64,000 bases of DNA. Source: Halorubrum sp. 48-1-W. Lineage in GTDB: Archaea; Halobacteriota; Halobacteria; Halobacteriales; Haloferacaceae. Of this stretch, positions 8,326 to 27,849 are shown one piece after another. A model generated the notes under the pieces. The model searched no databases, was not told the DNA's origin, and worked only from the letters and a program-made list of their open reading frames with translations. The stretch spans positions 1-64,000 of the forward strand of contig NZ_QMIM01000003.1 in assembly GCF_003287355.1 (NCBI RefSeq), read 5' to 3'. Within the stretch, counting starts at the first letter, position 1, and each line of letters starts with the position of its first letter. Made by a program: the position numbers and the translations under genes.

Positions 8326-8754
8326 ATGAGTGTGGTCAGCGTCTCGATGCCGGAGGAATTGCTTAACCGAATCGACCAGTTCGCCGACGACCACGGCTAT
8401 ACTGGTCGCAGTGAGGTACTTCGTGAAGCAAGCCGGAATCTCCTCGGTGAGTTCGAGGATAAGAAACTCGAAGATCGAGACTTGATGGGCGTCGTCACGG
8501 TGGTTTTCGACTACGAAACGACGAGCGTCGAGGAGAAGATGATGCGCCTCCGCCACGAGCACGAGGACATCGTCGCATCGAACTTCCACAGCCACGTCGG
8601 CGGCCATCATTGCATGGAACTGTTCGTACTCGAAGGGTCGCTCGAAGAGATCTCGACGTTCGTCGGGAAGATCCGAGCGACGAAGGACACGCTCACGATC
8701 GACTACTCAGTGCTACCCGTCGACGACTTCGGCCCGCTGGCCGATATGAACTGA
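8326..8754 (+). CDS. nikR: NikR-type nickel-responsive regulator (paralog 1, canonical site)
   Basis: 142 residues. The N-terminal ribbon-helix-helix ([32 protein letters not shown]) is followed by the ACT-like metal-binding domain. Aligned to E. coli NikR, all four nickel ligands are present: His in MRLRHEHED (H76 equivalent), His-x-His in [11 protein letters not shown] (H87, H89) and Cys95. The ATG at 8326 is chosen because the ribbon begins there and the sequence upstream is AT-rich and non-coding. NikR binds palindromic operators when loaded with Ni. The neighbouring ABC transporter genes are the obvious target. Confidence 0.9.
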
Positions 8755-8979
8755 TACTGTTCTGCCCATTCCGGCGAGCCCGCTTCCTTCCGCTCGTTCC
8801 ACTCGCTCCAGTCAGTGGGCTCGCAGACATCCCACTCGCTCCCTGCGGTCGCTCGCGGGATTCTCGCTGAATTCACGCCGACTCTAGCAACATCTATGAT
8901 CTCCATCCTCCATCAGTATTAACTACCTTTGCTAGAATCACAGGTATTATTAGAATTGCTTCTAGAGTTAGCAACACTG

Positions 8980-10005
8980 ATGGTTCAAATCTCGCGCCGA
9001 AGTCTACTCCAGAAGGCAGGTGCAACCACGACTGCTGCGACGGGAATTGCTGGCTGTCTCGGTCAGGGAGGTGCATCACTTGATTCCGTTACGGTCGCGT
9101 ACGTCCCGATTTACCCGAACATGCAACACTACGTGATGGAGCAAGAGGGGGACTACGAGAACGTTCCGGCAGATGTCTCAATAGAGCGGTTCAGCTCCGG
9201 CCCCAGTGTTGTCAAGGCGTTCGCGAGTGGGGACGTCGACGTTGCGCTTTTCGGGATCACTCCTGCAATGGTCCTCGTTGACAAAGGGACCAACGCCGGT
9301 ATCCTCGCGGCGAATTCGAGAAATGGCTTCAAGATCATGGGGACGACCGAACTCGCCGATCTCTACGAACAGGAAGGGGCTGCCACGTTCGAGCGCTTCG
9401 AAGAAGAGCACGGGCGGAAGGTCCGGTTTGGAGCACCGCCGGACGGGAGCGTCCCCGACATCGTTCTCCGGTACTGGATTCAGGAGGACCTCGACGTCGG
9501 TGAGATGGACTCCACCATCAACAAGTCCAAGGTACCGCCGGCGAAGGCGGTCCAGACCATCCAGTCGGGCGACATCGACGCGACGATCATCCAGGAACCG
9601 TTCGCGACGATCATCAGCCAAGCTGACGGGTTCGAGGAACTCGCCTGGTCCGGGAACATCCTGGACAACCACCCCGTCACGGTGCTGTTCGCGAACCAGC
9701 GAGTGCTCGACGACGATGAGGTCGCCCAATCACTCGTCGAACAGCACGTCGCGGCGACCGAGTTCACGGGGAACTCCCCGGATGCCGCCGCCAGCCACGC
9801 TGCCTCGGTCATCGGCTCCGGCGTGAGTGAAGACCTCGCGACGGCCGCCGTGGATTCGAAGGCGTCGGAGTTCATCTCGGACCCGCACGCGATCACCGAT
9901 CAAGCCGCGACGATGGGCGAGTTTGTCGCGAGTGTCGGAAACATCGAGGAGCCGGTCGTGACGGAGAACCTCTTCGCGTTCGATCCCTACGACGCACTCC
10001 AGTAA
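8980..10005 (+). CDS. ABC transporter substrate-binding lipoprotein, NMT1/TauA-like
   Basis: 341 residues. A Tat lipoprotein signal is visible: SRRSLLQKAG, then GIAGC with the lipidated Cys. The mature part has the fold signature of NMT1/TauA-type binding proteins: VTVAYVPIYPNMQHYVM, SGPSVVKAFASGDVDVALFG, VRFGAPPDGSVPDIVLRYWI and IQSGDIDATIIQEPFA. Such proteins usually bind nitrate, sulfonates, taurine, riboflavin or pyrimidine precursors. Placement between NikR-type regulators suggests a metal or a metal chelate instead; this is inference. It is cotranscribed with the permease (1-nt overlap). AT-rich boxes TATTAAC and TATTATTAG lie upstream. Confidence 0.82.
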   Translation: MVQISRRSLLQKAGATTTAATGIAGCLGQGGASLDSVTVAYVPIYPNMQHYVMEQEGDYENVPADVSIERFSSGPSVVKAFASGDVDVALFGITPAMVLVDKGTNAGILAANSRNGFKIMGTTELADLYEQEGAATFERFEEEHGRKVRFGAPPDGSVPDIVLRYWIQEDLDVGEMDSTINKSKVPPAKAVQTIQSGDIDATIIQEPFATIISQADGFEELAWSGNILDNHPVTVLFANQRVLDDDEVAQSLVEQHVAATEFTGNSPDAAASHAASVIGSGVSEDLATAAVDSKASEFISDPHAITDQAATMGEFVASVGNIEEPVVTENLFAFDPYDALQ

Positions 10006-10847
10006 TGAGTACGCAGACCGACACCAGTTCCAGCGCAGTGGTCGCCGGTAGCTTCGAGGGGGACCTGCAGCGGTATCTTCGCGGCCTCGGCGGTCTCGTC
10101 GTGTTCCTGCTCGTCTGGTGGGTTGGCGCGATGACGACCCAGCCGTCGTATCTGGTGCCGGGCCCCCTCGAATCAGTGCACGCGTTTATCGACCTGTTTG
10201 CGACCTCGACGGCAATTGTAGTTCCCGTTCTGGGGTCGAGTGTCGTACTCCCGACTGGGCTCGCACACCTCGCACAGACGCTGTTCCACTACGTGCCGGG
10301 GCTCCTCCTCGGCGCACTCTGTGGCATCAGTCTCGGCCTTGCGATGGGTTGGAACGGTGCGCTCGACGACTGGCTGCGACCACTCGTCCGGGTACTGCGA
10401 CCGATCCCGCCGCTGGCGTGGGTCGTCTTCGCCATCGTCTGGTTCGGCATCTACCACACTGGCGCGGCGTTCATCGTCTTCGTCGGCGCGTTCTGGATCA
10501 ACTTCTACGGCGCGTATGGCGGCGTCGAGGGCGTTTCGACCGAACTGACCGATGCCGCATCGACGCTCGGAGTCGAGCGCGACCTCTCGATGCTGAAACT
10601 CGTCGCGCTCCCGAGTGCGGCACCCCAAGTGCTGACTGGGTTCCGGACGAGCATTGGTCGCTGCTGGATGATCGTCGTCGGTGCCGAGCTGTTCGGCGCA
10701 CCAGGCGTCGGCTACGAGATTATCAACGCCTCGAACAACCTCGCGATGGCGACCAGCGTCGCCTACATGTTCCTGATCAGCCTGGCGTTCCTCTGTATGG
10801 ACGTCGGGTTCCGACTACTCGAACGGAGGGTCCTCGCATGGCGCTGA
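10005..10847 (+). CDS. ABC transporter permease (TauC/SsuC-type)
   Basis: 280 residues with about six membrane segments ([63 protein letters not shown] and a C-terminal pair). The cytoplasmic EAA-type loop is [33 protein letters not shown], the contact site for the ATPase. The start overlaps the binding-protein stop by one base, and the end overlaps the ATPase start by 10 bases. Confidence 0.88.
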
Positions 10848-11626
10848 GTTCGGACTCGTCTACCGGTCGAGACTCACGTGAGAAGATCACTATCCAGAAC
10901 GTCAGCCGGTCATACGAGTCGACACAGGCGCTCGATGACGTCTCGTTTTCGGTGTCGGAGGGCGAGTTCTGCTGTGTCGTCGGTCCGTCCGGGTGTGGGA
11001 AGACGACGCTGTTGCGAGCAATCGCCGGGCTTGACGGTCCGGATGGTGGGTCGATACTGGTCGGTGGAGACCCGGTTACCGGTCCTGGGCTGGACAGGGG
11101 AATGGTCTTTCAGGAGTACGCGCTGTTCCCGTGGCGAACCGTCCGCGGGAATATCCGGTTTGGTCTTGACCGGCCCGCCTGTGACTGTCCCGACTGCGAG
11201 GAACGGGTCCGGGAGTTAATCGACCTGGTAGGGCTCGACGGCTTCGAGGACGCGTACCCGAAGGAGCTGTCCGGCGGCATGAAACAGCGCGTCGGTATCG
11301 CTCGCGCGCTCGCCCCCGATCCGGAAATCCTCTTGATGGACGAACCGTTCGGGAGTGTCGACGCTCGGACGCGCGACCGCTTGCACGCCGAATTGCTCGA
11401 TATCTGGACGCAAACCGGACAGACCGTCGTGTTCGTCACCCACGACATCGACGAGGCAGTGACCCTCGCTGATCGCGTGGTCGTTATGGATGCCGACCCG
11501 GGAACCGTGCAGTCGACGTTCTCTATCGACTTAGAGCGCCCACGTGAACGGACCTCTCGTGACTTCGTGGACCACGTCGCGCGAATTAGGGATGCGCTCG
11601 GAAGTCCTGTCGACACTAGCCACTGA
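10838..11626 (+). CDS. ABC transporter ATPase (TauB/SsuB-type)
   Basis: 262 residues. Walker [11 protein letters not shown]-loop [11 protein letters not shown], signature [15 protein letters not shown], Walker [13 protein letters not shown] and the switch His in [10 protein letters not shown] are all present, so the ATPase should be active. The ATG at 10838 lies inside the end of the permease gene. After the Q-loop there is an unusual Cys cluster, ACDCPDC, where related ATPases have an ordinary linker; it could bind a metal. Confidence 0.9.
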
Positions 11627-11642
11627 TACGCTCTTACAGCAA

Positions 11643-11652
11643 TATTATTAAC
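11643..11652. promoter_or_regulatory. TATTATTAAC AT-rich box upstream of nikR paralog 2
   Basis: The same ten bases TATTATTAAC occur at 17596-17605 before the zinc transport operon. Relatives (TATTATTAG at 8945, CTGTTATTAA at 26446, GTTATTAG near 13004) lie before the other metal genes of the island. It may be an operator or only promoter AT-richness. Confidence 0.35.
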
Positions 11653-11703
11653 AACGAGTTACTAGACTGCTATATCTATTATCTCCGAGACAATTTTTAA
11701 TAT

Positions 11704-12147
11704 ATGCCCATCGTGAGCTCCTCGATGACGGAGCGACTCCGGGACGATCTCGATACGTTTGCGGAAGAACACGGCTACACCGGACGAAGTGAGGTCATCC
11801 GCGAAGCGTGCCAGTCGCTACTCGAAGAATACCAAGAGACAGACGGCGAGGATCGGCGGGTATTGGCGACAGTTACGGCTGTCTTCGGATACGACGAGCC
11901 GGAGATCGAACGCCGGATGATGGATATCCGCCACGAATTCGAAGCGTCAATCCGGTCGAACTCCCACAACTGCCTCGAAGGCAACGCCGGCTGTGTCGAG
12001 ACGTTCGTCATCGAAGCCGCGTACGACAATATCCTGCGATTCATCGGAACCGTTCGAGGAGCAGACGAGTCAGTTTCAGTCGAATATACGGTCGTACCTG
12101 TCGATGTCATGAAGGCACAAATCAACGAACGACAGAATGTGAATTAA
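11704..12147 (+). CDS. NikR-like regulator (paralog 2, altered metal site)
   Basis: 147 residues. The N-terminal ribbon-helix-helix is clear (VSSSMTERLRDDLDTFAEEH, YTGRSEVIREACQSLLEE). The ACT-like domain keeps the H76 equivalent in DIRHEFEA, but the second ligand stretch reads SHNCLEGNAGCVE instead of HxHxxxxxC. The second His is replaced by Cys, and the final Cys is shifted by one residue. The site would be His2Cys2, which could favour zinc or cobalt. It lies 77 bp after the ABC ATPase on the same strand and is followed by another NikR-like gene. Confidence 0.82.
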   Translation: MPIVSSSMTERLRDDLDTFAEEHGYTGRSEVIREACQSLLEEYQETDGEDRRVLATVTAVFGYDEPEIERRMMDIRHEFEASIRSNSHNCLEGNAGCVETFVIEAAYDNILRFIGTVRGADESVSVEYTVVPVDVMKAQINERQNVN

Positions 12148-12153
12148 CACACG

Positions 12154-12543
12154 ATGCGCACGAGCTTCAACATCCCTGACAACCTCCTGTCCGAGTTCGA
12201 TGAAACGTGGCAAGCAGAGGGGTTAGATTCACGTTCCCGTGGCGCCCGCGAAGCGATGCAGGAGTACATCGAGTCACACACCAGACTAGAGGATATTGAA
12301 GGCGACGTCGTCGTCATCATCGCTTTCGATTATGAACATAAAGCAGTTATCGAAGACATCCACGACGTACAACACCAGTTTCAGGACGTCATCACGACCA
12401 CGAATCATATCCATGAAGGAGAGTGGTGTCTCGAGACGCTCTTTTGTAACGGGCCAGCCTCGCGCGTCCGGACTCTCACCTATCGCTTGCGCGATTTCGA
12501 TACGGTGAGTCGAGTGAAACTGATGCTCCTCGCCGAGCACTGA
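12154..12543 (+). CDS. NikR-like regulator (paralog 3, shortened loop)
   Basis: 129 residues. The DNA-binding part is diverged (TSFNIPDNLLSEFDETWQAEG, SRSRGAREAMQEYI). The ACT-like domain has VQHQFQD (H76 equivalent) and TNHIHEGEWCLE, with both His of the HxH pair and the Cys but one residue fewer between them. It starts 6 bases after paralog 2 and is surely in the same transcript. Two different subunits made together could form mixed tetramers; that is a guess. Confidence 0.78.
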   Translation: MRTSFNIPDNLLSEFDETWQAEGLDSRSRGAREAMQEYIESHTRLEDIEGDVVVIIAFDYEHKAVIEDIHDVQHQFQDVITTTNHIHEGEWCLETLFCNGPASRVRTLTYRLRDFDTVSRVKLMLLAEH

Positions 12544-12550
12544 GCGGTGT

Positions 12551-12982
12551 TCAAGACTTGATGCGCTGATCGATGTGAGCATCGCCCAGTGAGGCGATCG
12601 AGTAATCCACCGCTTGGACATTCGGCACTGCTCGAACGCTGTTGACGAATCCAGACAGTGCCTCTGTGGTCCCCTCTAAAACGTACAACTCCATACAGTA
12701 CTGGTCTTGGACGTGTGTGTGGGTCGTCGCGGAGACAATATCATCGTACTCGTGGCGTACTCCCGTGAGACGCTGTTGAACGGCGGGCTGACAGTACTCG
12801 AAGACGGCCGTTACTGTACACATATGCTTCTGTCCCTCGATATCTCGCTCTTGAAACTCTTCGAGTAGCGTACGTGTGCCTTCGCGTACGACTTCGCTTC
12901 GACCACTGTACCCGTGTTCTTCGGCGAACTTGTCGATGCGTTCAAGCAATGCCTCGGGCATCGAGATGCTAACGACGCTCAT
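12551..12982 (-). CDS. nikR: NikR-type regulator (paralog 4, canonical site)
   Basis: 143 residues, the closest relative of paralog 1 in this window (both begin MSVVS-SMPE-LL-RID). All four NikR ligands are present: GVRHEYDD, THTHVQDQYC. It is transcribed away from the cobW gene at 13081, sharing a 98-bp AT-rich spacer that holds GTTATTAG and GTTAT-N13-ATAAC repeats. It is therefore a good candidate for regulating itself and the CobW operon. Confidence 0.88.
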   Translation of the reverse strand: MSVVSISMPEALLERIDKFAEEHGYSGRSEVVREGTRTLLEEFQERDIEGQKHMCTVTAVFEYCQPAVQQRLTGVRHEYDDIVSATTHTHVQDQYCMELYVLEGTTEALSGFVNSVRAVPNVQAVDYSIASLGDAHIDQRIKS

Positions 12983-13080
12983 ATGCTAAGGCTCTGTTTA
13001 GAGTTATTAGTATCTGTTATGACTATTCGATCTATAACGTAATAATTAGTATTTTAGTATAGTGGATTCATAATTAGTGT
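12983..13080. promoter_or_regulatory. divergent promoter region between nikR paralog 4 and cobW1
   Basis: 98 bases, very AT-rich. An imperfect inverted repeat GTTAT-N13-ATAAC lies near 13016-13038, with TAATAATTAG and TATAGTGG nearby. It must carry the promoters of both divergent genes. Confidence 0.45.
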
Positions 13081-14298
13081 ATGCTGTCCAACGACGACCC
13101 GATCCCGGTAACGATCCTCAGCGGAAGCCTCGGTGCCGGCAAAACGACGACGCTCAACCACATTCTTAGTAGCGAACAAGAACTGAACGCCGCCGTCTTA
13201 GTCAACGACATGGGCGAAGTGAACGTCGACGCCGACCTCGTCGAACGCGAGTCGGATCTCACCCAGAACGACGACGAAATCATCGAGATGTCGAACGGGT
13301 GTATCTGCTGTCGGCTCCGCGGGGACATGCTTGACGAGGTAGGCCGATTAGCCGAGGAGCGAGACTTCGAGTATCTTCTCGTGGAGTCGTCCGGGATCAG
13401 CGAACCGATTCCGGTTGCACAGACGTTTGCTCGCGGATTCGAAGACGCGAATTTCGACCCCACGGGCGTCTACGAACTCGACACAATGGTCAGCGTCGTT
13501 GACGCGCACAGCTTCTGGAAAGGGTTTGATTCCGGCCAAGCTCTCACCGACGACTCCATCGATCCACAGGGTAACCGTGTCCCCGAGGAGGCGCTGATGG
13601 ATCAGATCGAGTTCTGCGATGTCCTCTTGTTGAACAAGTGCGATCTCGTCCCCGACGATGAGCTTGAAGAGATAGAGGGAGTGCTACGGGCGCTCCAACC
13701 GCGAGCAAATATTATCCGAACCGAACACGGGGCAATAGACCCCAGAGAGATCCTGAATACGGGTCGGTTCGATTTCGATCGCGCGAGTCAGTCCGCCGGT
13801 TGGAAGCGTGAACTCCAGCACGGCCACCACCACGAGTCGGCCGCCGACGAACACGGGGTCACCTCGTTCGTCTTCGAATCCCGCCGACCGTTCCACCCCG
13901 AGCGGATCGCTCGACTCTTCGCCGACCTCCCCGACGGTATCGTTCGCGCGAAGGGATTTTTTTGGTCCGCTGGTCGTGAAGACATCGCCATGGGTCTCGA
14001 CAAGGCAGGTCAGTCGGTCCGGGCCGGTCCGAAAGGGACGTGGATCGCCACGCTCCCAAAGGCCCAACAAGAGCGTTACTTCGCCGCTCGTCCCGGCATC
14101 AAAGAGGACTGGGACGACCAGTGGGGCGACCGCGGGTCAGAGCTCGTATTCATCGGCCGCGAATTCGATCAGGAGACACTGATCGAGCGACTGGAAGGCT
14201 GTGTCCTCTCGGACGCGGAGATGGAGGAGAACTGGAACGAGTATCCGGACCCGTTTACCGCCGAAGAACAGCGCGAACTCGCACTGGCTGACGACTGA
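13081..14298 (+). CDS. CobW/COG0523 metallochaperone GTPase 1
   Basis: 405 residues. Walker A GSLGAGKTT at residues 15-23, the family metal motif GCICC (C74, C76, C77), the Walker B region YLLVESSGISEP and the base-recognition motif NKCD are present. A CobW C-terminal domain follows (TSFVFESRRPFHPERIARLF). A short His cluster, HGHHHESAADEHG, sits between the domains. COG0523 proteins insert Zn, Co or Ni into client proteins using GTP. This is the first gene of a tightly packed operon; its stop and the next start share one base (TGATG). Confidence 0.9.
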   Translation: MLSNDDPIPVTILSGSLGAGKTTTLNHILSSEQELNAAVLVNDMGEVNVDADLVERESDLTQNDDEIIEMSNGCICCRLRGDMLDEVGRLAEERDFEYLLVESSGISEPIPVAQTFARGFEDANFDPTGVYELDTMVSVVDAHSFWKGFDSGQALTDDSIDPQGNRVPEEALMDQIEFCDVLLLNKCDLVPDDELEEIEGVLRALQPRANIIRTEHGAIDPREILNTGRFDFDRASQSAGWKRELQHGHHHESAADEHGVTSFVFESRRPFHPERIARLFADLPDGIVRAKGFFWSAGREDIAMGLDKAGQSVRAGPKGTWIATLPKAQQERYFAARPGIKEDWDDQWGDRGSELVFIGREFDQETLIERLEGCVLSDAEMEENWNEYPDPFTAEEQRELALADD

Positions 14299-15629
14299 TG
14301 ACCGTCGACGAGCAACCCCCGGTCACGATCCTGAGTGGCGGTCTCGGCGCCGGAAAGACGACCCTGCTCAACCACCTCCTCACGGTTGGCGGCGAGGAGT
14401 ACGATATCGCCGTTCTCGTCAACGATGTCGGGGAAGTAAACGTCGACGCCAACCTCATCGAGAACGGCTCCGAACTCTCGATGGAAGACGGGGGCGTTAC
14501 TGAGCTTTCGAACGGCTGTATCTGTTGCGGCCTCCAGAACGAACTGGACCAAGAGCTGCTACGTCTCGCCTTCGACGAGGAGTTCGATTATCTAGTCATC
14601 GAAGCCTCGGGGATCAGCGATCCGGTTCCCATCGCCCAGCGGTTCGTCTCGCCCGCACGTGCGTCGACGCTGTACGATCTCGATACGACCGTCACGGTGG
14701 TCGACGCCGCACAGTTCCATCAGGCGTTCGTCGACGGTCGTCCGATCAAGTCGACGGATGACGGCTCTCGACCGCTTTCGGACCTCCTCGCCGAGCAGGT
14801 CGAGTTCTGCGACGTACTCGTCCTCAACAAGTGCGATCTCGTCTCCGAAGACGAGCGCGAGGCGGTCGAACGCGTGCTCGAAACGCTCCACCCCGGCATC
14901 AACATCGTCCGCACGACCCAGAGTACCGTCGAACCCGACAAGATTTTCGGAACTGGACGATTCGACAGAGAGCAAGCAAAACAGTCTGCCCGGTGGAAGC
15001 AGGTGCTCTCGAACGGCCACGGAGAAACTGGCGAGTCGAAATCGGCTAAGATCGACCACGGTGACGGTCATAGCAACGACGAGATTTCCGAGCGCGACAA
15101 CACTCACGACGATACCCACGATGGTCAGGGTGACGGCCACGATCACCTTCACCCGCCGGAGGAGTTCGGTGTCGACTCCTTCGTCTACGAGCGCCACCGG
15201 CCGTTCCATCCCGAACGGTTCAGCGAGTGGCTCCGCTCGTTCCCTGAGTCTGTCGTCCGAGCGAAGGGCCACTTGTGGGTCGCTGGACGTGAGCGATACG
15301 CGCTTGATCTAAGTCAAGCAGGCACACAAACGCATGTCGAAGTCAACGGCCGATGGGCGGTCACGGTCCCAAAGTTCCAGCGCGATTCCTACCGTGAGTC
15401 ACGACCGAATCTCCACTGGGACGAACAGTGGGGAGATCGTGAGGTAAAACTCGTCTTCATCGGCGCCGGAATGGACGACACAGATATTACTACCGCCCTT
15501 GATGACTGTCTCCTCTCAGAACCGGAGATGGCGGAGAACTGGGACGAGCTCAAGAATCCGTTTCCAGGAACGATGGATCGATCACAGCCACCGATGGAAC
15601 AGCGTCTCGTAGTCGGTGAAGGGCAGTGA
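14298..15629 (+). CDS. CobW/COG0523 metallochaperone GTPase 2 with His/Asp-rich linker
   Basis: 443 residues. Walker A GGLGAGKTT, the GCICC motif at C74-C77, and NKCD are conserved. It differs from copy 1 by a long interdomain insert of about 45 residues rich in His and Asp (GHGETGESKSAKIDHGDGHS, then THDDTHDGQGDGHDHLH), a likely metal-storage or metal-scavenging loop. It overlaps the MoaB-like gene by 4 bp (GTGA). Two different chaperones in one operon suggest distinct metals or clients. Confidence 0.9.
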   Translation: MTVDEQPPVTILSGGLGAGKTTLLNHLLTVGGEEYDIAVLVNDVGEVNVDANLIENGSELSMEDGGVTELSNGCICCGLQNELDQELLRLAFDEEFDYLVIEASGISDPVPIAQRFVSPARASTLYDLDTTVTVVDAAQFHQAFVDGRPIKSTDDGSRPLSDLLAEQVEFCDVLVLNKCDLVSEDEREAVERVLETLHPGINIVRTTQSTVEPDKIFGTGRFDREQAKQSARWKQVLSNGHGETGESKSAKIDHGDGHSNDEISERDNTHDDTHDGQGDGHDHLHPPEEFGVDSFVYERHRPFHPERFSEWLRSFPESVVRAKGHLWVAGRERYALDLSQAGTQTHVEVNGRWAVTVPKFQRDSYRESRPNLHWDEQWGDREVKLVFIGAGMDDTDITTALDDCLLSEPEMAENWDELKNPFPGTMDRSQPPMEQRLVVGEGQ

Positions 15630-16198
15630 CCGGGGATCACTCGGAACTCCCGTCGCGGGCGGACCGACGGACGACGGATACAGACGGTCACGACTGCGTT
15701 GATCCGCTCGGTGTCGCAATCGTGACCGTCTCGTCGTCCCGAGGAACCGCCACGGAGGCAGACCCAACTGATCCCGGCGGTGACGCCGTCGCAAACACTC
15801 TCGTCGACGCAGGTCACGTCGTCACGTCACGCCGGACGGTTCCGGACGACTACGTCCGGATCAAGACCACCGTGAGTGAGTGTCTGGATCGGTCGGACGT
15901 TGACCTCGTCGTGACTACCGGCGGGACGGGAGTCACTGTCGATGACGTCAGTCCGGACGCGGTGAGCGAACTCTTCGACCGCGAGCTACCAGGCTTCGGC
16001 GAGGCGTTCAGGCGGCTCTCGTGGGAGGAGGTCGGAACCCGAGTCGTCGCGACCCGCGCGACGGCGGGTATCGCCCGTGAGGTCCCGGTATTCGTGCTGC
16101 CCGGAAGCGTGAACGCCGCTGAACTCGCTACGGCCGAAATTATCGCGGAGGAAGCCCCGCATCTCGCCGGACTCGCGACGCGACACAGGGTGGAGTAG
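15626..16198 (+). CDS. MoaB/MogA-type molybdopterin-binding protein
   Basis: 190 residues from a GTG that overlaps the cobW2 stop. The MoaB/MogA fold motifs are visible: VAIVTVSSSRG near residue 30, DAGHVVTSRRTVPDD, DLVVTTGGTGVTVDDVSPDA (the molybdopterin-binding TTGGTG) and AGIAREVPVFVLPGSVNAAE. Proteins of this family adenylylate molybdopterin before metal insertion. Here it sits in a metal-chaperone operon and not with moa or moe genes, so a changed substrate is possible. The N-terminal 25 residues are a charged extension. Confidence 0.85.
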   Translation: MTGDHSELPSRADRRTTDTDGHDCVDPLGVAIVTVSSSRGTATEADPTDPGGDAVANTLVDAGHVVTSRRTVPDDYVRIKTTVSECLDRSDVDLVVTTGGTGVTVDDVSPDAVSELFDRELPGFGEAFRRLSWEEVGTRVVATRATAGIAREVPVFVLPGSVNAAELATAEIIAEEAPHLAGLATRHRVE

Positions 16199-16588
16199 AT
16201 GCAGGGTTCCAAAATGTATCAGGAGGTAATCCTGGATCACTACCGCAATCCTCGAAGGTGGGGGCGCCTCTCGCCAGCTACCGTCTCTCACACTGGCGAG
16301 AACGCTTCCTGTGGCGACGAACTCACCTTCGACCTCAGACTCGCCGAGGACGGTGAAACGATCGAAGAGGTCACGTTTACTGGAGAGGGCTGTGCGATCA
16401 GCATCGCGAGCGCGAGCCTGCTCGCCGAAGAGCTCCCGGGAATGACGCTCTCGGAGGTTCATGATCTCGACCGTGAGGACGCCCTCGATCTCTTGGGAAT
16501 CGAGCTGACGCCAATGCGCGTCCCGTGTGCTGTACTCGCGGAGAAGGTGGTTCAGGACGGCGTCAAGAACTATGAGGGGGGCACGTAA
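16199..16588 (+). CDS. SufU/IscU-type iron-sulfur scaffold protein
   Basis: 129 residues beginning MQGSKMYQEVILDHYRNPRR; MYQEV at 16214 is the more usual family start. The three scaffold Cys and the Asp are in place: ASCGDE (C38, D40), EGCAIS (C65) and RVPCAVL (C110). SufU-like proteins carry a zinc ion and accept sulfur from SufS, or serve as Fe-S scaffold. No cysteine desulfurase gene is nearby. The gene begins immediately after the moaB-like stop with no gap, so it belongs to the cobW operon. Confidence 0.88.
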   Translation: MQGSKMYQEVILDHYRNPRRWGRLSPATVSHTGENASCGDELTFDLRLAEDGETIEEVTFTGEGCAISIASASLLAEELPGMTLSEVHDLDREDALDLLGIELTPMRVPCAVLAEKVVQDGVKNYEGGT

Positions 16589-16591
16589 CCG

Positions 16592-17257
16592 ATGACACTG
16601 TACGGAATTGGGCTGGGGCCGGGCGCGACTGACCTGCTCACGGTTCGCGGCAAGCGACGGCTCGAATCGGCCGACATCGTCTACTCACCAGGACGACTGT
16701 CACGGCGCGTCGCAGCCGAGTACGTTTCCGAATCGAAACTGAGTGACCTCGAGTTCCCGATGACGACCGATCCCGAAGAACTCCAGGCAGCGTGGGAGAC
16801 GGCGGCCGCGGAAGTCGCGCCGAAAGCGCGAGAGGCCGACGCGGCGTTCGTCACGCTCGGCGATCCCTGTATCTACTCGACGTTCGGGCACCTGCATCGG
16901 ACGCTTCGCGAGCAGCATCCCAGCGTCGACATCGAAGTCGTCCCCGGTGTCAGCAGTGTGACGGCGTTCGCTTCGGTCCTCGGGGTCGACATCGACGCTG
17001 GCGCTGAACTGACGCTATGCGAGGCGACTGACGGAGAAGCACCGATCGGTCCGAATCGGTTGATCCTGTTCAAAGTAACCGACGCACCGACGACCTACGA
17101 AAAGATGACTGAAGCAGGGTACGAGCTGACGTTCGGACGGCGACTCTTCATGGATTCGGAAGAGGCCCTCGTTACGAACGATCCCGGTGAGGTAACTGAT
17201 CGAGACTACTACACGCTCGCGTACGCAGAGAAACGAGAGGGGACCGGGTCTGCGTGA
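16592..17257 (+). CDS. cbiL: CbiL-type precorrin-2/cobalt-precorrin-2 C20-methyltransferase
   Basis: 221 residues of the tetrapyrrole SAM methyltransferase family. GIGLGPGATDLLTVRGKRRL at the N-terminus, FVTLGDPCIYSTFGHL and VVPGVSSVTAFASVLG are typical of CbiL/CobI. It is the only corrin-pathway gene in the window. Its place as last gene of the cobW-cobW-moaB-sufU run, 3 bases after the scaffold gene, is odd: either a spare cobalamin gene kept for cobalt supply, or a methyltransferase recruited for another tetrapyrrole. Confidence 0.88.
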   Translation: MTLYGIGLGPGATDLLTVRGKRRLESADIVYSPGRLSRRVAAEYVSESKLSDLEFPMTTDPEELQAAWETAAAEVAPKAREADAAFVTLGDPCIYSTFGHLHRTLREQHPSVDIEVVPGVSSVTAFASVLGVDIDAGAELTLCEATDGEAPIGPNRLILFKVTDAPTTYEKMTEAGYELTFGRRLFMDSEEALVTNDPGEVTDRDYYTLAYAEKREGTGSA

Positions 17258-17595: not shown

Positions 17596-17605
17596 TATTA
17601 TTAAC
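17596..17605. promoter_or_regulatory. TATTATTAAC AT-rich box upstream of the zinc transport operon
   Basis: Identical to the ten bases at 11643-11652 and set 55 bases before the znuA start. A second element, GTGTTAACAAC, lies at about 17648. Candidate operator or core promoter. Confidence 0.35.
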
Positions 17606-17659
17606 TTCACCACACAAAATCATATCTCTTATTATCTAGTCTGCCAGTGTTAACAACAG

Positions 17660-19237
17660 ATGCCTCGATACACCCGACGACGACTCGTCGCAACTGGAAT
17701 CGGATTCACCACCATCGGCTCCCTCGCTGGCTGTCTCTCGAACGACGCCAGCTCTAATGATTCAGGTGGAGCCGGGCCGGAAGCCCAGTCTTCGTTCTTC
17801 GTATTCGGGGACTTGGCCAGTCAGGTTGCAGGCGACACTGCGACCGCAGAGACGCTCGTCCCGATCGGCCAACACGGCCACGGGTGGGAGCCTGGCTCCA
17901 AAATACAGGGAACGATCCTCGAATCGGATCTCTTCCTCTACGGGATGGAGGGATTCCAGCCTTGGGCTGACGACCTCGTGACGAGTCTCCGTGACGACGA
18001 CACCGATGTCGACATCGTCGCTGCCGGTGCTGGTATCGACCTCATCGAAGGCGGACACGACCACGGTCACGAAGAAGACCACGAGGGGGAACACGAGGAA
18101 GGCCACGACGGCGAAGGAGAACACGGCCACGATGAACACGAAGAGGGAGACCACGAGGAGCACCACGGCGAATCGGCCCCGTGGGAGTGGGCTGGTCTCT
18201 ACCACCTCGAAGCTGGCACCTACACGTACACGTTCCACGAGGGCCCTGATCCGAAGATGCAGCTAGCCGTTATCGGAACCGAAGAGGGCGGCGACCACGG
18301 CATTCACCACGTCGAGGAGACCGCAACCACCCTCTACGGCGACCACGACACGCACACACCGGTAGAAGGCGGAGAGACACTCACGCCGTCCAGTGAGTCA
18401 CTCTACCACCTCCAGTTCGCGGATTCCGGCGAGACGACGTTCTCCCTCGATATCGAAACGGAGGGCCACTACGTACTCTTCGCCCAGCACGCTCCCGCGG
18501 AGTTCGACGCGACGCTCACCAACGGCAGTGGGTCGGCCATCGAACCCGAAGTGACCGAGACTGCCGGCGAACACGGACACGAGGGCGATGGCGAGCACGA
18601 AGGTGAACACGACCATGAGAGTGGAGAGGAACACGAAGACGAGCACGAGGGAGAAAACGAACACGAAGGCGAGGAGGGACACAACCACGACCACTCCGGC
18701 GGAACGGACCCGCACTTCTGGCTAGACCCGGAGCGAGCGAAGCAGGCGGTCGACAACATCCGGAGCGGGTTCGTCGATGTCGACAGCGACAATGCCAGTG
18801 CCTACGCCGAGAACGCCGAGTCGTACCGTAATCGTCTAGACGAACTCGACGAGTCGTTCCAGTCCGCGCTGGAGGGCGCCTCGAAAGACGTCGTGTTTGT
18901 CGCGGGTCACAACGCCTTCCAGTATCTCGGCCAGCGCTACGGATTCGAAGTACAGACGCTGACGGGACTGTCACCGGACGACCAGCCGACGCCGAAGGAT
19001 ATCGAGCGGGCCCAGGAGATCATTGCCGAGCACGACCTCCAGTACGTCTGTGCGGATCCGCTCGAATCCCAGACCGCGGCGAACCAGCTCGTCGAAGAAA
19101 CCGACGCCACCGAAGTCCTGCCGCTGACGCCGATTCCCGGACAGACCCAGGAGTGGGCCGACGAGGACTGGGGCTATGTCGAGATCATGGAAAACATCAA
19201 TCTCGAGACGCTGAAGCAGGCCCTCGACGCAGAATGA
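17660..19237 (+). CDS. znuA: ZnuA-type zinc-binding lipoprotein with an inserted beta domain
   Basis: 525 residues, far longer than the usual 300. A Tat lipoprotein signal (TRRRLV; lipobox LAGC, C25) starts it. The two ZnuA lobes are split. Residues about 45-130 hold QHGHGWEP. Residues 350-525 hold DPHFWLDP (H352), AGHNAFQYLGQRYGF and CADPLESQ, the expected zinc ligands. Between them are a first His/Glu/Asp loop (133-172), a beta-rich domain (about 175-296: WEWAGLYHLEAGTYTYTF, YVLFAQHAPAEFDATL) and a second His/Glu loop (303-346). The inserted domain is not part of standard ZnuA. The stop overlaps the next start by 4 bp. Confidence 0.9.
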   Translation: MPRYTRRRLVATGIGFTTIGSLAGCLSNDASSNDSGGAGPEAQSSFFVFGDLASQVAGDTATAETLVPIGQHGHGWEPGSKIQGTILESDLFLYGMEGFQPWADDLVTSLRDDDTDVDIVAAGAGIDLIEGGHDHGHEEDHEGEHEEGHDGEGEHGHDEHEEGDHEEHHGESAPWEWAGLYHLEAGTYTYTFHEGPDPKMQLAVIGTEEGGDHGIHHVEETATTLYGDHDTHTPVEGGETLTPSSESLYHLQFADSGETTFSLDIETEGHYVLFAQHAPAEFDATLTNGSGSAIEPEVTETAGEHGHEGDGEHEGEHDHESGEEHEDEHEGENEHEGEEGHNHDHSGGTDPHFWLDPERAKQAVDNIRSGFVDVDSDNASAYAENAESYRNRLDELDESFQSALEGASKDVVFVAGHNAFQYLGQRYGFEVQTLTGLSPDDQPTPKDIERAQEIIAEHDLQYVCADPLESQTAANQLVEETDATEVLPLTPIPGQTQEWADEDWGYVEIMENINLETLKQALDAE

Positions 19238-19455
19238 GCGACACCACGTCTGGCGACACGGAACCGGAGTGGGACGGGAACGCCGAGCCCGGTCCGTCCG
19301 AGAGCCCTCGTTCGGGATTGATGGCACTGGTTGTCGGCCCTGCGGAGAGACCCGTCTGTACGATCTATCCGCCGGACGTGGCTGTTCCGTATCGGACGAC
19401 GACCTGGATTACGGCGTACGGGAACTCGTTCGTCGACCTCGACGACTACCGATGA
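19234..19455 (+). CDS. small conserved protein within the znu operon (DUF7511-like)
   Basis: 73 residues. A flexible acidic N-terminus precedes MALVVGPAERPVCTIYP, then TTTWITAYGNSFVDLDDYR. This pattern resembles a small haloarchaeal family I know as DUF7511; function unknown. It overlaps znuA by 4 bp and znuC by 4 bp (ATGA both times), so it is firmly part of the operon. Confidence 0.65.
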   Translation: MSDTTSGDTEPEWDGNAEPGPSESPRSGLMALVVGPAERPVCTIYPPDVAVPYRTTTWITAYGNSFVDLDDYR

Positions 19456-20225
19456 CGACAGCAACGACGGAGAGGGAACGGGCGGGAGACCCTCTCATCA
19501 GCGTCGACGACGTCACATTCGGCTACGGAGAGATCCCGGTTCTCGAGTCGGTGTCGATCGACGTCGAACCCGGATCCTTCCTCGGACTGGTCGGGCCGAA
19601 CGGCAGCGGCAAGAGCACGCTGCTCGACCTGATGCTCGGTCTCCGACGGCCCGACAGTGGAACGGTTTCGCTGTTCGGCGAACCCGCCCACGAGTTCGAC
19701 GCCGGTGAGCGAATCGGATACGTCGCACAGGACGCGACGAAGGCGGCGCGTGATATGCCGATCACGGTTCGAGAGGTTGTCGAGATGGGGCGGTACCCGC
19801 GGCGGCTTTTCGGTCGATTCTCGGCAGCGGACCGGCAAGCGATCGAAGACGCGCTGGAACAAGTGGGAATCACAGACCTCGCGTCTCGTCGAGTCGGCCG
19901 ACTGTCCGGTGGCCAACGACAACGGGTCTTCATCGCCCGTGCGCTCGCCTCGGAGGCCGACCTGCTCGCACTCGACGAACCGACGGTCGGCGTCGATGCC
20001 GAATCCAGAGAGGAGTTCTACAGCCTCCTGCACGACCTGAATGCGACCGGGCTGACCGTCATCCTCATCGAACACGACATCGGCGTCGTCACCACCTACG
20101 CGACGGATATCGCGTGTCTCAACCGCGAACTGTACTTCGACGGTGACCCGAGTACGTTCGTCGAAACGGACGCCCTCGCGCAAGCGTACGGGACCGATCA
20201 GCACGTCCTCCACCACGACCACTGA
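19452..20225 (+). CDS. znuC: ZnuC-type zinc ABC transporter ATPase
   Basis: 257 residues. Walker A GPNGSGKST, Q-loop YVAQDA, signature LSGGQRQRVFIARALA, Walker B LLALDEPTVGVD and the switch His (LIEHDIGVV) are present. VREVVEMGRYPRRLFGRFS is typical of the Zn/Mn ATPase group. The ATG at 19452 overlaps the previous stop. The C-terminus ends in HVLHHDH, a possible metal tail. Two bases separate it from znuB. Confidence 0.92.
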   Translation: MTTATTERERAGDPLISVDDVTFGYGEIPVLESVSIDVEPGSFLGLVGPNGSGKSTLLDLMLGLRRPDSGTVSLFGEPAHEFDAGERIGYVAQDATKAARDMPITVREVVEMGRYPRRLFGRFSAADRQAIEDALEQVGITDLASRRVGRLSGGQRQRVFIARALASEADLLALDEPTVGVDAESREEFYSLLHDLNATGLTVILIEHDIGVVTTYATDIACLNRELYFDGDPSTFVETDALAQAYGTDQHVLHHDH

Positions 20226-20227
20226 CC

Positions 20228-21283
20228 ATGATGCAATCCTCCTCTCTTGACGCAGGCGTGCCGTTCGACGAAGTGACCGCTGTCCTATGGATCGGTGGCA
20301 TACTCATCGACGGCGTCGAGTGGTTCCTCGACCACATCTTCGGTCCCGGAATGGACGTGTTGGCCGACCTGCTCGGCACACCGATGCTTGGATATCCCTA
20401 CATGCAGCGAGCCTACCTCGCTGCGGTATGTATCGCTGTCATCGGCCCGATCGTCGGGACGTTCCTCGTCCATCGAGAGATGGCGATGATCGGCGACACC
20501 CTCGCACACACAGCCTTTGCCGGCGTCGCCGTCGGATTGTTCCTCAATTCGGCCCTCTCGCTCACGCTTTCCCCGCTGCTCACCGCGTTCGTGGTCGCAG
20601 TCGTCACGGCGCTACTCGTAGAGTTACTCGTCGAACACGCCGGGGCGTACAGCGACACCTCGCTGGCGATCGTCCTGACGGGCGGGTTCGCCGTCGGCAG
20701 TATTCTCATCACTGCAACCGACGGTGGCATTGCGGTCGGCATCGACGCCTACCTCTTCGGCAGTCTGGCGACCGTCTCGACGGAGAACGTCGGGATCCTC
20801 GTGTTGATGAGCGTCATCGTCGGCAGTCTCGTCACGCTGGCGTATCGGCCACTCCTGTACGTCACGTTCGACGCGACGGCCGCCCGCGCGGCGCGACTGA
20901 ATGTCCGCCTGTACAAACGCCTCATGGTCGTGCTCACGGTGCTGGTCGTCGTCAGCGCGATGCAGATCATGGGCGTCATCCTCGTCGCTGCGATGCTCGT
21001 CGTTCCGGTCGCCGCTGCGGCGCAAGTCGCCAAGAGCTTCAAGCAATCCATCTTGCTGGCGATCCTCGCCGCCGAGTTCGCGGCGATAGCCGGTGTGACG
21101 CTGTCGTACGTCTACGGAATTGCGGCCGGCGGCTCGATCGTCGTCGCGGCGATTGCCGTGTACGCCGTCGCGCTTAGTAGTCGAAAGTTGGGCTATCGGC
21201 TCCCGATCGTACAACGGTTCAGTGATCGTCAGTCCAAGCACCACCGAAAAGAACTGGAAGTCGACGGAGGAAAACGAGAGTGA
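20228..21283 (+). CDS. znuB: ZnuB-type zinc ABC transporter permease
   Basis: 351 residues with about eight to nine hydrophobic segments. The ABC-3 family pattern is clear: FLVHREMAMIGDTLAHTAFAG near residue 80, LAIVLTGGFAVGS, and MGVILVAAMLVVPVAAAAQVA. It forms the membrane channel of the ZnuABC uptake system. The last bases overlap the GTG of the flavoprotein gene by 4 bp. Confidence 0.92.
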   Translation: MMQSSSLDAGVPFDEVTAVLWIGGILIDGVEWFLDHIFGPGMDVLADLLGTPMLGYPYMQRAYLAAVCIAVIGPIVGTFLVHREMAMIGDTLAHTAFAGVAVGLFLNSALSLTLSPLLTAFVVAVVTALLVELLVEHAGAYSDTSLAIVLTGGFAVGSILITATDGGIAVGIDAYLFGSLATVSTENVGILVLMSVIVGSLVTLAYRPLLYVTFDATAARAARLNVRLYKRLMVVLTVLVVVSAMQIMGVILVAAMLVVPVAAAAQVAKSFKQSILLAILAAEFAAIAGVTLSYVYGIAAGGSIVVAAIAVYAVALSSRKLGYRLPIVQRFSDRQSKHHRKELEVDGGKRE

Positions 21284-22572
21284 CAGTCGGTAGGTTGACC
21301 GCTGATCACCCACTGAGTGGTGATCCCCCCTACGAGTACGTAATTGTTGGCGGCGGAATTCACGGCACTTGCCTCGCAAACCACCTCATTACGGAGGGTG
21401 AATACACGCGCGACGAGATTCGTATCCTCGACCCGCGCGAGGAGTTACTCGCTTCGTTCGCCAAGAAGGCCAATCAGTGCGGCATGGAGACCCTCCGATC
21501 GACGTTCGTCCACCACATCGACACCGAGTCGTTCTCGCTCGAGTCGTTCGCGGAAGGACACCACCGAGCGAACGAACTCGTGTCGACGAAGAACTACCCA
21601 GACCGACCGACTCTCGGCCTGTTTCTCGACCACGCTCGCGACGTTATCGAGCGCCGTGAGCTTTCCGGCTGTCATCATCGGTCGAAGGTAACCGATGTTA
21701 CCCGGTCTGCGGGCACAGAGACGTATCTGGTGGAAACGGGCGCGGGAGCGATTGAGACTCACCGCGTCGTCTTGGCCGTCGGGCTCGGGGCGACACCGAC
21801 GCTCCCAGAGTGGACGGCGTCGCTCCCGGACGACGCGCCCCTCGCACACGTCTGGGACGAAGCGTTCGACCCGGCGACGCCCGGCCCGTTCGAGGGGCGA
21901 ACGTTCGTCGTCGGAGGCGGTATCACTGCCGGGCACCTCGCCTGCCGTCTGGCAGAATGGACCGCGGTGACGCTCCTGTCGCGTCACGAACTCGAAATCG
22001 AACTGACCGAGGCCGACCCGCACTGGATCAACTGGCGTCACATCGGCAAAGAGATCCACACGCTCCCGCCGGGATCGGAGGCCCGTCTCGATCGGGTCCG
22101 AGCCGCCCGCAACGACGCCACGATCCCACCGTACGTCGAACGACGACTGGCCGAAGCGCGTGACGGTGGTGCGCTTGAACACCGGCAAGGCGAAATCACG
22201 TCTGCGAACGCGACAGACGAGGGGCTGTCCCTCCGCTTCGACGGCGGCACGAAAGCGACGGCCGCACGCGTCGTCCTCGCGACCGGACTCGAACCGGTTC
22301 CCAAGCAGCCGTTGGTCGGCCGCGTCAGCGAGTCACTGTCGCTCGCACGCGGGGTCGAGGGATTCCCCGTTCTCAACGATCAAACCCTCGCGTGGAGACG
22401 GACCGACGGTACTGAGTCCGCGGTGTACATTTCGGGCGCGCTCGCGGAGCCCAGCGTCGGTCCTTTCGCTCGCAATATCGTCGGTGCCCGCCGGGCCGCA
22501 GAACGGATTCTCGACCCACCAGATCAGGCGCAGACAGGCCCGCTCCCGATGAGCTCTCGAGGAGGATCGTGA
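21280..22572 (+). CDS. FAD/NAD(P)-binding oxidoreductase of the znu operon
   Basis: 430 residues from a GTG. An N-terminal dinucleotide fold (YVIVGGGIHGTCLANHLI) and a second one (TFVVGGGITAGHLACRLAE) give the two-domain layout of lysine/ornithine-monooxygenase-like flavoproteins. ATGLEPVPKQPL and GFPVLNDQTLAW are late FAD-contact regions. Coupling to znuB suggests a role in zinc limitation, perhaps in making or reducing a metal ligand; the substrate is unknown. Confidence 0.8.
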   Translation: MTVGRLTADHPLSGDPPYEYVIVGGGIHGTCLANHLITEGEYTRDEIRILDPREELLASFAKKANQCGMETLRSTFVHHIDTESFSLESFAEGHHRANELVSTKNYPDRPTLGLFLDHARDVIERRELSGCHHRSKVTDVTRSAGTETYLVETGAGAIETHRVVLAVGLGATPTLPEWTASLPDDAPLAHVWDEAFDPATPGPFEGRTFVVGGGITAGHLACRLAEWTAVTLLSRHELEIELTEADPHWINWRHIGKEIHTLPPGSEARLDRVRAARNDATIPPYVERRLAEARDGGALEHRQGEITSANATDEGLSLRFDGGTKATAARVVLATGLEPVPKQPLVGRVSESLSLARGVEGFPVLNDQTLAWRRTDGTESAVYISGALAEPSVGPFARNIVGARRAAERILDPPDQAQTGPLPMSSRGGS

Positions 22573-25158: not shown

Positions 25159-26445
25159 TCAGTCCGCGAGGCCGACCTCCTCGGCGCCGTCGTCGGTCGT
25201 CTCGGTCGGCTCCTCGGTCCCCTCTTCAAGTGTGGCGGAGTCTCCGTCGTCCCACGTCGGGAACCGGTCGTCGAAGGCGGTCCAGTCGGCATCCATTTCC
25301 TCGTCGGTCAGCAGGGCCGCATCGAGGTCGGTGCGGAGCGCGTCGTGGTCCATGTCCGTACCAATGAGCACGAGCTGGGTCCCCCTGTCACCCCACTTGT
25401 CGTCCCATATCTCTTCGAGCTCCGGATTGGCCTCGAAGTAGCTCTCGCGCTCGTTCTCCGGCAGCGTCGCAATCCAATTACCGGCCGACCCAACTCGGAT
25501 CGACTGTCCCGCGACGTTCAATCCGAGTGCCATTTTTTCGCGACCCGCCAGCCAGAAGTGACCCTTCGAGCGGACGACGTTCGCGGGGAACGAGTCGAGC
25601 AGATCAGCGAACCGTTCAGAATGGAACGGACGGCGCGACGTGTAGACGAACGACGTGACGCCGTGTTCCTCTTGGGCGGACTCGTGCGGCTGCTGGAGTT
25701 CCCGTAGCCACCCCGCGGACTGGCTCGCCGCTTCGAAGTCGAACCGTCCTGTATCGAGGATCTCGCCGGGATCGACCGCGCCGTGTTCGGTTCGGATGAT
25801 CTTCGCGCGCGGTTGTAGCACTTCGATCATCTCTTCGATCTCGCCGAGCGTCTCCTCGTCGACGAGGTCGCACTTGTTCAACAGCAGGACATCACAGAAC
25901 TCGATCTGTTCGATCAAGAGGCTTCCGAGGTCCTTCTCGGTGTCACCGTCCATCAGCGATTCCTTCGAATCGAACGTTGTCCAGAACTGGTGGGCGTCGA
26001 CCACAGTGACGGTCGTGTCGAGTTCGTAGTAGTCCATCACTTCGATGCCGGTCTCCTCGTAGAACTCCGTGGGATCGAGGTCGCCTTGATCGAATCCCAT
26101 GGTGAGCGTCTGGGCGACCGGCAACGGTTCGGCGACGCCCGTCGATTCGATTACCAGGTAGTCGAACTCGCGGGCTTGTGCGAGCTTCGCGAGCGCGTCC
26201 AGCAGGTCGCCGCGTAGCTCACAGCAGATACAGCCGTTCGACAGTTCGATCAGGTCCTCGTCGTCCTCCGAGATGTCCGAGTGTTCGGCGACGCGCTCGG
26301 CGTCGACGTTCACCTCGCCCATGTCGTTGACGAGGACCGCGACGTCCAGGTCCGTTCGCGTGTTCAGGAGGTTGTTCAGCACGGTCGTCTTGCCCGCGCC
26401 GAGGTTGCCGCTCAGCACGGTGACGGGAATCGTCTCTCGACTCAT
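25159..26445 (-). CDS. CobW/COG0523 metallochaperone GTPase 3
   Basis: 428 residues. GNLGAGKTT, GCICC (C72, C74, C75), VIESTGVAEP and NKCD are conserved. The C-terminal CobW domain is full length (TSFVYTSRRPFHSERFADLL), followed by an acidic tail of about 40 residues. It differs from copies 1 and 2 by lacking a His-rich linker (only PHESAQEEHG). Divergent from the flavoprotein fragment and the S14 paralog, it fits the known link between COG0523 proteins and zinc-free ribosomal protein copies. Confidence 0.9.
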   Translation of the reverse strand: MSRETIPVTVLSGNLGAGKTTVLNNLLNTRTDLDVAVLVNDMGEVNVDAERVAEHSDISEDDEDLIELSNGCICCELRGDLLDALAKLAQAREFDYLVIESTGVAEPLPVAQTLTMGFDQGDLDPTEFYEETGIEVMDYYELDTTVTVVDAHQFWTTFDSKESLMDGDTEKDLGSLLIEQIEFCDVLLLNKCDLVDEETLGEIEEMIEVLQPRAKIIRTEHGAVDPGEILDTGRFDFEAASQSAGWLRELQQPHESAQEEHGVTSFVYTSRRPFHSERFADLLDSFPANVVRSKGHFWLAGREKMALGLNVAGQSIRVGSAGNWIATLPENERESYFEANPELEEIWDDKWGDRGTQLVLIGTDMDHDALRTDLDAALLTDEEMDADWTAFDDRFPTWDDGDSATLEEGTEEPTETTDDGAEEVGLAD

Positions 26446-26509: not shown

Positions 26510-26842
26510 GTGACATCCGAAGAAGCCCGTAAACACGAGTCGCTCGACGTAGCGATTGTCGGGGCAGGTGCCGCAGGCGTCGGTCATGGGGCCGTCCTCG
26601 CGGATCTAGGTCTCGACTCCTACGCCATCCTCGAGCGAGGCGAAGTCGGGGCGGCGTTCCTACAGTGGCCAGAAGAAATGCGCCTCATCACGCCATCGTT
26701 TCCTAGCAACAGCTTCGGCTGCCGCGACCTCAACGCCGTCACCACTAACACCTCGCCCGCATTTGCGCTCGAAGAGTATCCTGACAAGAACATGTTCCTC
26801 GAGGACTTGTCCTACTGCGAATCCGACATGTGCGACTGCTAA
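26510..26842 (+). pseudogene. truncated FAD-dependent oxidoreductase N-terminus
   Basis: About 110 residues from GTG (a TTG at 26501 is also in frame). VAIVGAGAAGVGHGAVLADL and GAAFLQWPEEMRLITPSF are the N-terminal FAD fold of a CzcO/flavoprotein family that normally exceeds 350 residues. The frame leaves the family after FALEEYP and ends in an unrelated Cys-rich tail, [16 protein letters not shown]. An internal deletion has probably joined two genes. It sits just before the S14 paralog. Confidence 0.7.
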
Positions 26843-26844
26843 TC

Positions 26845-27027
26845 ATGACACGAGATACTCCGCAGAAAGAGAGTGGGATCGATCAGCTGAACGATTCGAG
26901 AGACGACCGACACGTCTGCCGCATGACGGGACGCGAACAAGGTCTCGTCGGTAAGTACGACATCTGGCTCTGCCGACAATCGTTTCGGGAACTGGCTCCG
27001 AAGATGGGGTTCAAAAAATATGACTGA
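26845..27027 (+). CDS. ribosomal protein S14 (uS14) paralog lacking two zinc Cys
   Basis: 60 residues. The C-terminal 35 residues ([20 protein letters not shown], then MGFKKYD) are unmistakable archaeal uS14. The usual zinc finger is C-x2-C...C-x2-C. Here the pairs read C25-R-M-T28 and C43-R-Q-S46, so two of four ligands are gone. The protein therefore should not hold zinc in the normal way. In bacteria, Cys-free ribosomal paralogs next to COG0523 genes replace the zinc forms during zinc starvation; the context here (CobW, ZnuABC) is the same. It overlaps the next reading frame by 8 bases. Confidence 0.85.
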
Positions 27028-27688: not shown

Positions 27689-27849
27689 ACCAGAAGTTCC
27701 GAGATGAAAGTATTAATACTCTATGTCGAATTGGCTATTATTGATAATAGTGATGGCAATAATAACATTCGCTTTTCTAGTAGTCCGAGATCGTCGTGTA
27801 GACGAGCAGTATCTAAATCCGCGGGTAGCGCCACAGAACAGACGTTTCC

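Follow-up and report, generated by a model that had tools for sequence, protein, structure and literature searches.

Four NikR paralogs in one haloarchaeal metal island: a candidate zinc (and cobalt) starvation regulon

Why would a haloarchaeon carry four paralogs of NikR, a regulator otherwise associated with nickel, within 4.7 kb of its genome, and which metal would they be sensing? The question is raised by the window analyzed here, i.e., the first 64,000 nucleotides of contig NZ_QMIM01000003.1 (forward strand) from Halorubrum sp. 48-1-W, the 3.58 Mb draft genome of which is 99.9% complete. An original prediction made from this sequence had pointed out four NikR-family open reading frames (ORFs), and all four are indeed present and exceed the Pfam NikR_C cut-off of 22 bits: R1 (8326..8754, forward strand; 80 bits), R2 (11704..12147, forward; 38 bits), R3 (12154..12543, forward; 72 bits), and R4 (12551..12982, reverse strand; 75 bits). 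The whole genome encodes five NikR_C proteins, the fifth being the core NikR on another contig (C36); one to three per genome are usual for the family, and several genomes having 5 to 11 are carriers of the “island” in which R1 to R4 reside. The answer that seems moderately probable to us is that this island, carried on a mobile element, serves haloarchaea as a regulon for zinc (and cobalt) starvation, controlled by NikR-family repressors, with R2 as the main repressor acting via a shared promoter element. R2 would then most likely repress its own gene in response to zinc/cobalt and fill the place of Zur, where we infer the repression per se, the signal (zinc, or zinc plus cobalt), and R2, not R1, as the binder of the element.

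The metal site is where R2 departs from the known NikR proteins. In E. coli NikR numbering, the nickel ligands are His76, His87, His89, and Cys95, and alignment of the paralogs and their mapping on the E. coli protein indicated that this set is complete in R1, R3, and R4 and incomplete in R2. R1 and R4 have the canonical H,H,H,C arrangement (HxHx5C), R2 has Cys in place of His89 and a loop that is one residue longer (H,H,C,C; HxCx6C), and R3 retains all four ligands with a loop that is one residue shorter (H,H,H,C; HxHx4C), all of which agrees with what had been predicted. As R3 keeps all four ligands, the “three different metal sites” proposed at the same time stand as three sequence classes and not as three distinct, proven geometries; the structure models yielded no metal geometry. 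Misalignment as the source of the ligand differences was ruled out, since these are clade-wide and fixed, with the other three ligands being invariant and His89 the sole variable ligand position of the paralog alignment. When 173 unique NikR-family proteins encoded at related loci were compared, the ligand/loop motifs fell into discrete classes: HHCC with a ten-residue H-to-C segment in 36 of the 38 R2 relatives, and HHHC with an eight-residue segment in 40 of the 43 R3 relatives. The four paralogs also form four separate groups in a tree, R1 (79–82% identical to core NikR) falling with core NikR and R4 into a clade of its own; only this grouping was used, because the tree had few columns and many unresolved forks.

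Against the NCBIfam models of nickel-responsive regulators, R4 just reaches one cut-off (83.4 vs. 83), R1 is just below (82.2 vs. 83), R3 is below (100.5 vs. 111), and R2 is far below (53.5 vs. 119), while the N-terminal ribbon-helix-helix (RHH) region is matched by Pfam RHH_1 in R1 and R4 and unmatched in R2 and R3. The latter two nevertheless align with solved NikR across the RHH region, and their structure models have both of its helices (the N-terminal strand being of low confidence) along with an ACT-like beta-alpha-beta-beta-alpha-beta domain; the best PDB fold matches of the R2 model are NikR chains. The DNA-contact strand reads V-S-S in R1, R4, and core NikR, I-S-S in R2, and R-S-N in R3, because of which R3 probably reads a site other than that of the remaining three. 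Some island copies of R3 (loci L144, L153, and L154) carry Arg in place of the ligand His76 or His87 or contain a frameshift, which suggests that R3 may be dispensable in those islands. Partners of the relatives differ elsewhere as well, the R3 type being found beside NicO-like transporters (whose Pfam scores are below the cut-off) and another NikR clade beside CbiM. A widespread chromosomal R3-type NikR (HxHx4C; L127, L133, and L137), for instance, adjoins a membrane protein that is NicO-like and has a motif of the GIEPGHGWPVAASYALDQ type, and the two could possibly be a nickel/cobalt transporter with its own sensor.

Which metal the island serves is best approached through its gene content. 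Downstream of the NikR genes, on the forward strand unless stated otherwise, lie genes for two ZigA-like COG0523 GTPases, cobW1 (13081..14298) and cobW2 (14298..15629), for CbiL, a cobalt-factor II C20-methyltransferase (16592..17257), and for a ZnuA-type metal-binding protein (17660..19237), a ZnuC/AztA-type ATPase (19269..20225), and a ZnuB/AztB-type permease (20228..21283), followed by a third ZigA-like COG0523 GTPase on the reverse strand (25159..26445). The best score of these GTPases is with the zinc chaperone ZigA, although below the strict ZigA cut-off. Further on, a second ribosomal protein S14 (26845..27027, forward) has both zinc CxxC motifs broken (CRMT...CRQS, with C-to-T and C-to-S changes), whereas the core S14 of the same genome has CRRC...CRQC (C4). 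In a hand count over the 135 family genomes scored for both S14 and R2, a full-length S14 of this C-minus kind was present in 10/16 genomes with R2 and in 0/119 without it (Fisher p 2e-11); a few other genomes (e.g., G145 and G107) likewise have C-minus copies, which are shorter or more diverged. A zinc importer, COG0523 GTPases, and a zinc-free ribosomal paralog thus stand together in one locus, as in a Zur-type regulon; zinc-regulated ribosomal paralogs are a hallmark of bacterial Zur regulons (PMC9825181), and the Haloferax gibbonsii island has a HisI paralog, such paralogs being found in bacterial Zur regulons too (PMC2770081).

Taken as a set, ZnuACB, the three ZigA-like GTPases, the zinc-free S14, CbiL, and the CbiM of an energy-coupling factor (ECF) transporter seen in related islands point to zinc with cobalt, not nickel, as the metal whose shortage these genes would answer. 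The cobalt genes do not contradict this, since cobalt, not nickel, can partly substitute for zinc in zinc-starved Cupriavidus (PMC11340326). The idea that the paralogs are sensors tuned to different metals is well supported insofar as they are distinct conserved types within a metal island (separate clades, fixed ligand classes, differing partners); the assignment of nickel, cobalt, and zinc to single paralogs is conjectural. No FUR match above the cut-off was found in the genome, and its two DtxR-type regulators both lie on other contigs, with none in the island.

Several of the island promoters share an element. A palindrome-constrained motif search on seven promoters of one complete island recovered TATTAAC-N22-NYTATTA before the ATP-binding cassette (ABC) importer, R2, cbiM, and znuA, at a similar distance to the start codon and so placed that its downstream half covers part of the likely TATA box. 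Its score of 28.8 exceeded those of 40 shuffled sets (maximum 27.0) and of 40 control promoter sets (maximum 27.8), and a second complete island was likewise above its 20 shuffles, the N22 element standing out in both L188 and L189. For the six promoters of the window itself, the top motif had another spacing (N18) and no clear excess (27.12 vs. a shuffle maximum of 27.03), and an inverted-repeat search of single promoters gave weak arms only. The strict pattern TATTAAC-N22-YTATTA, however, has just three matches in the 3.58 Mb genome, all in the island and on the forward strand, before the ABC importer (8917..8952), R2 (11646..11681), and znuA (17599..17634), vs. none for the reversed control. 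Across 44 genomes, the element (TATTAAC-N21..23-YTATTA) was found in 18/22 of those with R2 and 0/22 of those without (p 1.4e-8), while the reversed control gave six scattered matches. The within-island matches are partly circular, because the pattern was defined after some of the tested promoters had been seen; the element also predicted an Opp/Nik-type importer in two further genomes, which it precedes at the right start distance, and these matches played no part in its definition. These importer genes, located near the island (L261, 6302–7837; L262, 5982–7505), are likely further members of the regulon.

Repression by a metal-loaded tetramer would follow the NikR precedent. With metal plentiful, metal-loaded NikR-family tetramers would sit on AT-rich operators over leaderless promoters and keep import off; R2, with its H2C2 site, would act on the shared gapped element to repress the ABC, ECF, and ZnuACB importers as well as its own gene, R4 would control the divergent promoter shared with the COG0523 chaperones, and R1 and R3 might set further thresholds or respond to cobalt/nickel. 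With metal scarce, the repressors would release, importers and chaperones would be made, and the zinc-free S14 would take the place of the zinc-containing one, sparing zinc. The more specific proposal, that R2 and its relatives are zinc- (or zinc/cobalt-) sensing NikR proteins, the first non-nickel members and the haloarchaeal counterpart of Zur, beside three NikR paralogs with separate metal thresholds, is a tentative one that we would rate somewhat short of an even chance.

A number of observations weigh against the R2-centered regulon. The H2C2 set is compatible with zinc or cobalt and proves neither; InrS binds planar nickel through just such a set (PMC7055735), the characterized NikR proteins respond in vivo to nickel only, and two of the 38 R2 relatives deviate from HHCC, one having Arg at His76 and the other (a diverged Haladaptatus protein, L181) having Tyr at the Cys89 position. 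All four paralogs might be nickel (or nickel/cobalt) sensors like the known ones in an island for nickel/cobalt uptake, with ligand and loop changes tuning affinity only, which the additional element-preceded importer of the Opp/Nik class, the NicO-like neighbors of R3-type proteins elsewhere, and the cobalt indicated by CbiL and ECF CbiM would suit. ZnuACB, the three ZigA-like GTPases, and an S14 devoid of zinc ligands are a poor fit to a nickel response, though, and no nickel enzyme was seen among those genes of the window's island that were annotated or in three annotated islands, making this explanation unlikely in our estimation.

Further such observations concern the element and its binder. 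Its distribution ties it to the island and does not single out R2, because the genomes without R2 are without the whole island; the promoters of R1, R3, and cobW1 have no match (hence one operator common to every promoter of the island was ruled out), and R1, R2, and R4 are nearly identical in their DNA-contact residues (V/I-S-S), so that R1 could be the binder. It is conceivable that R1, a near-copy of core NikR whose contact strand differs from that of R2 only by V/I at position 3, binds the element within what would still be a zinc/cobalt-starvation regulon, with R2 as a modulator, perhaps in mixed tetramers, and Haloferax islands, which keep the element along with R1 and R2 and are without R3 or R4, would allow for it. 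Against this, the element stands in the promoter of R2 and not in that of R1, and core NikR is nearly universal, yet the element is absent from the tested genomes lacking R2; we hold this alternative to be highly improbable. R2 is thus our preferred candidate binder with R1 as its rival, since the element is found in the R2 promoter but not before R1, R3, or cobW1, R4 promoters match in only 1/26 cases, and the element persists in Haloferax with just R1 and R2. The divergent R4/cobW1 spacer (12983..13080) has a different, strongly conserved block of its own (ACTAAAATACTAATTATTACG on the minus strand), for which reason the island appears to comprise at least two regulatory classes.

Lastly among the opposing points, Halobacterium SirR, a DtxR-type protein, reportedly controls zurMA, and its control of cbiNMQ has been predicted (PMC3600143). 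An outside regulator of this type, such as one of the two DtxR-type proteins encoded elsewhere in the genome, might run the zinc genes, with the NikR paralogs adjusting local nickel/cobalt transporters or being mere passengers, as the decay of some R3 copies could be taken to indicate. The znuA promoter, however, shares its element with R2 and two other importers, the strict element occurs nowhere else in the genome, the annotated genes lying between the two bordering transposases included no other recognized regulator, and the NikR genes travel with the island across families, all of which leaves an outside regulator very unlikely.

Compared with known systems, the favored R2-repressed zinc/cobalt regulon resembles that of NikR (E. 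coli, H. pylori, and P. horikoshii) in the RHH plus ACT-like NikR_C architecture, in the conserved His76, His87, and Cys95, in the closeness of the R2 model to solved NikR chains, and in the predicted metal-dependent repression of importers, and differs in the Cys at position 89 and longer loop of R2, in the shorter loop of R3, in its zinc/cobalt rather than nickel context, and in the element (NikR operator: GTATGA-N16-TCATAC). The bacterial Zur (Fur family) regulon has the same ZnuABC, COG0523 GTPases, zinc-free ribosomal paralog, and (in one island relative) HisI paralog, but the island regulator is not a Fur-family one, no Zur is found above the cut-off in this genome, and archaea are reported to lack Zur (PMC2770081). 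For archaeal ZntR/SirR (DtxR family) proteins, control of znu-type and cbi-type importers has been proposed or reported, yet they belong to another protein family than NikR and are absent from the island. InrS, a nickel sensor of the CsoR family, has the ligand set of R2 on an unrelated fold, which cautions against equating H2C2 with zinc. The island suggests that archaea without Zur may detect a shortage of zinc or cobalt by means of modified NikR proteins. If true, a nickel sensor fold would have been retuned through one changed ligand plus one loop residue; the protein proposed for this, the operator it likely uses, and the genes it would control can be named and are testable in Haloferax, and a role is offered for the second haloarchaeal S14 (rps14b), which has been noted without a function (PMC8305020). 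In the literature searched, neither the NikR paralogs of haloarchaea nor a zinc-sensing NikR was the subject of any paper, which is not proof that there is none.

A full island comprises R1, an ABC importer, R2, an ECF block (CbiM, a small membrane protein, and CbiQ-type and CbiO-type proteins), and R3, followed by the divergent R4 and cobW1, cobW2, moaB, nifU, cbiL, znuA, znuC, znuB, a FAD protein, and the third COG0523 gene. In the window, R2 and R3 are six bases apart, and the tandem noted in the original prediction is real here but is not the native order, which was ruled out since the ECF block of approximately 3 kb intervenes in most relatives; the two appear in tandem because that block is deleted, and no CbiM was found in the whole genome. 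The remaining forward-strand genes encode the substrate-binding protein (NMT1/Tau-like, 8980..10005, starting with ATG at 8980 within a longer ORF from TTG at 8929), the permease (10005..10847), and the ATPase (10844..11626; nearest NCBIfam models of SaoA and Tau types, below cut-off) of the ABC importer, as well as a MoaB-like protein (15626..16198), a NifU_N/SufU-like scaffold (16199..16588), and the FAD/NAD(P)-binding protein (21280..22572). Close R2 relatives (62 to 96% identity) are spread over several families of the class, many on megaplasmids, as would be expected for horizontal spread, and the island thus appears to be a mobile one passed among haloarchaea. ISH3-type transposases lie on both of its sides (4951–6627 and 27704–29497).

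Three minor observations concern individual island components. In L110 (genome G378, 9840–13050), a diverged HHCC NikR ends a cluster of a substrate-binding protein, permease, and ATPase in which the other NikR genes of the island are missing; this may be the system in minimal form. The island ECF CbiM (L188, 18571–19251) begins M-A/P-H-I-H rather than M-H-I, and the extra residue may alter the N-terminal metal site. Just before the S14 gene of the window (26510–26842), a FAD-dependent oxidoreductase of only ~110 amino acids seems to have undergone an internal deletion relative to the full-length protein of the Haloferax gibbonsii island.

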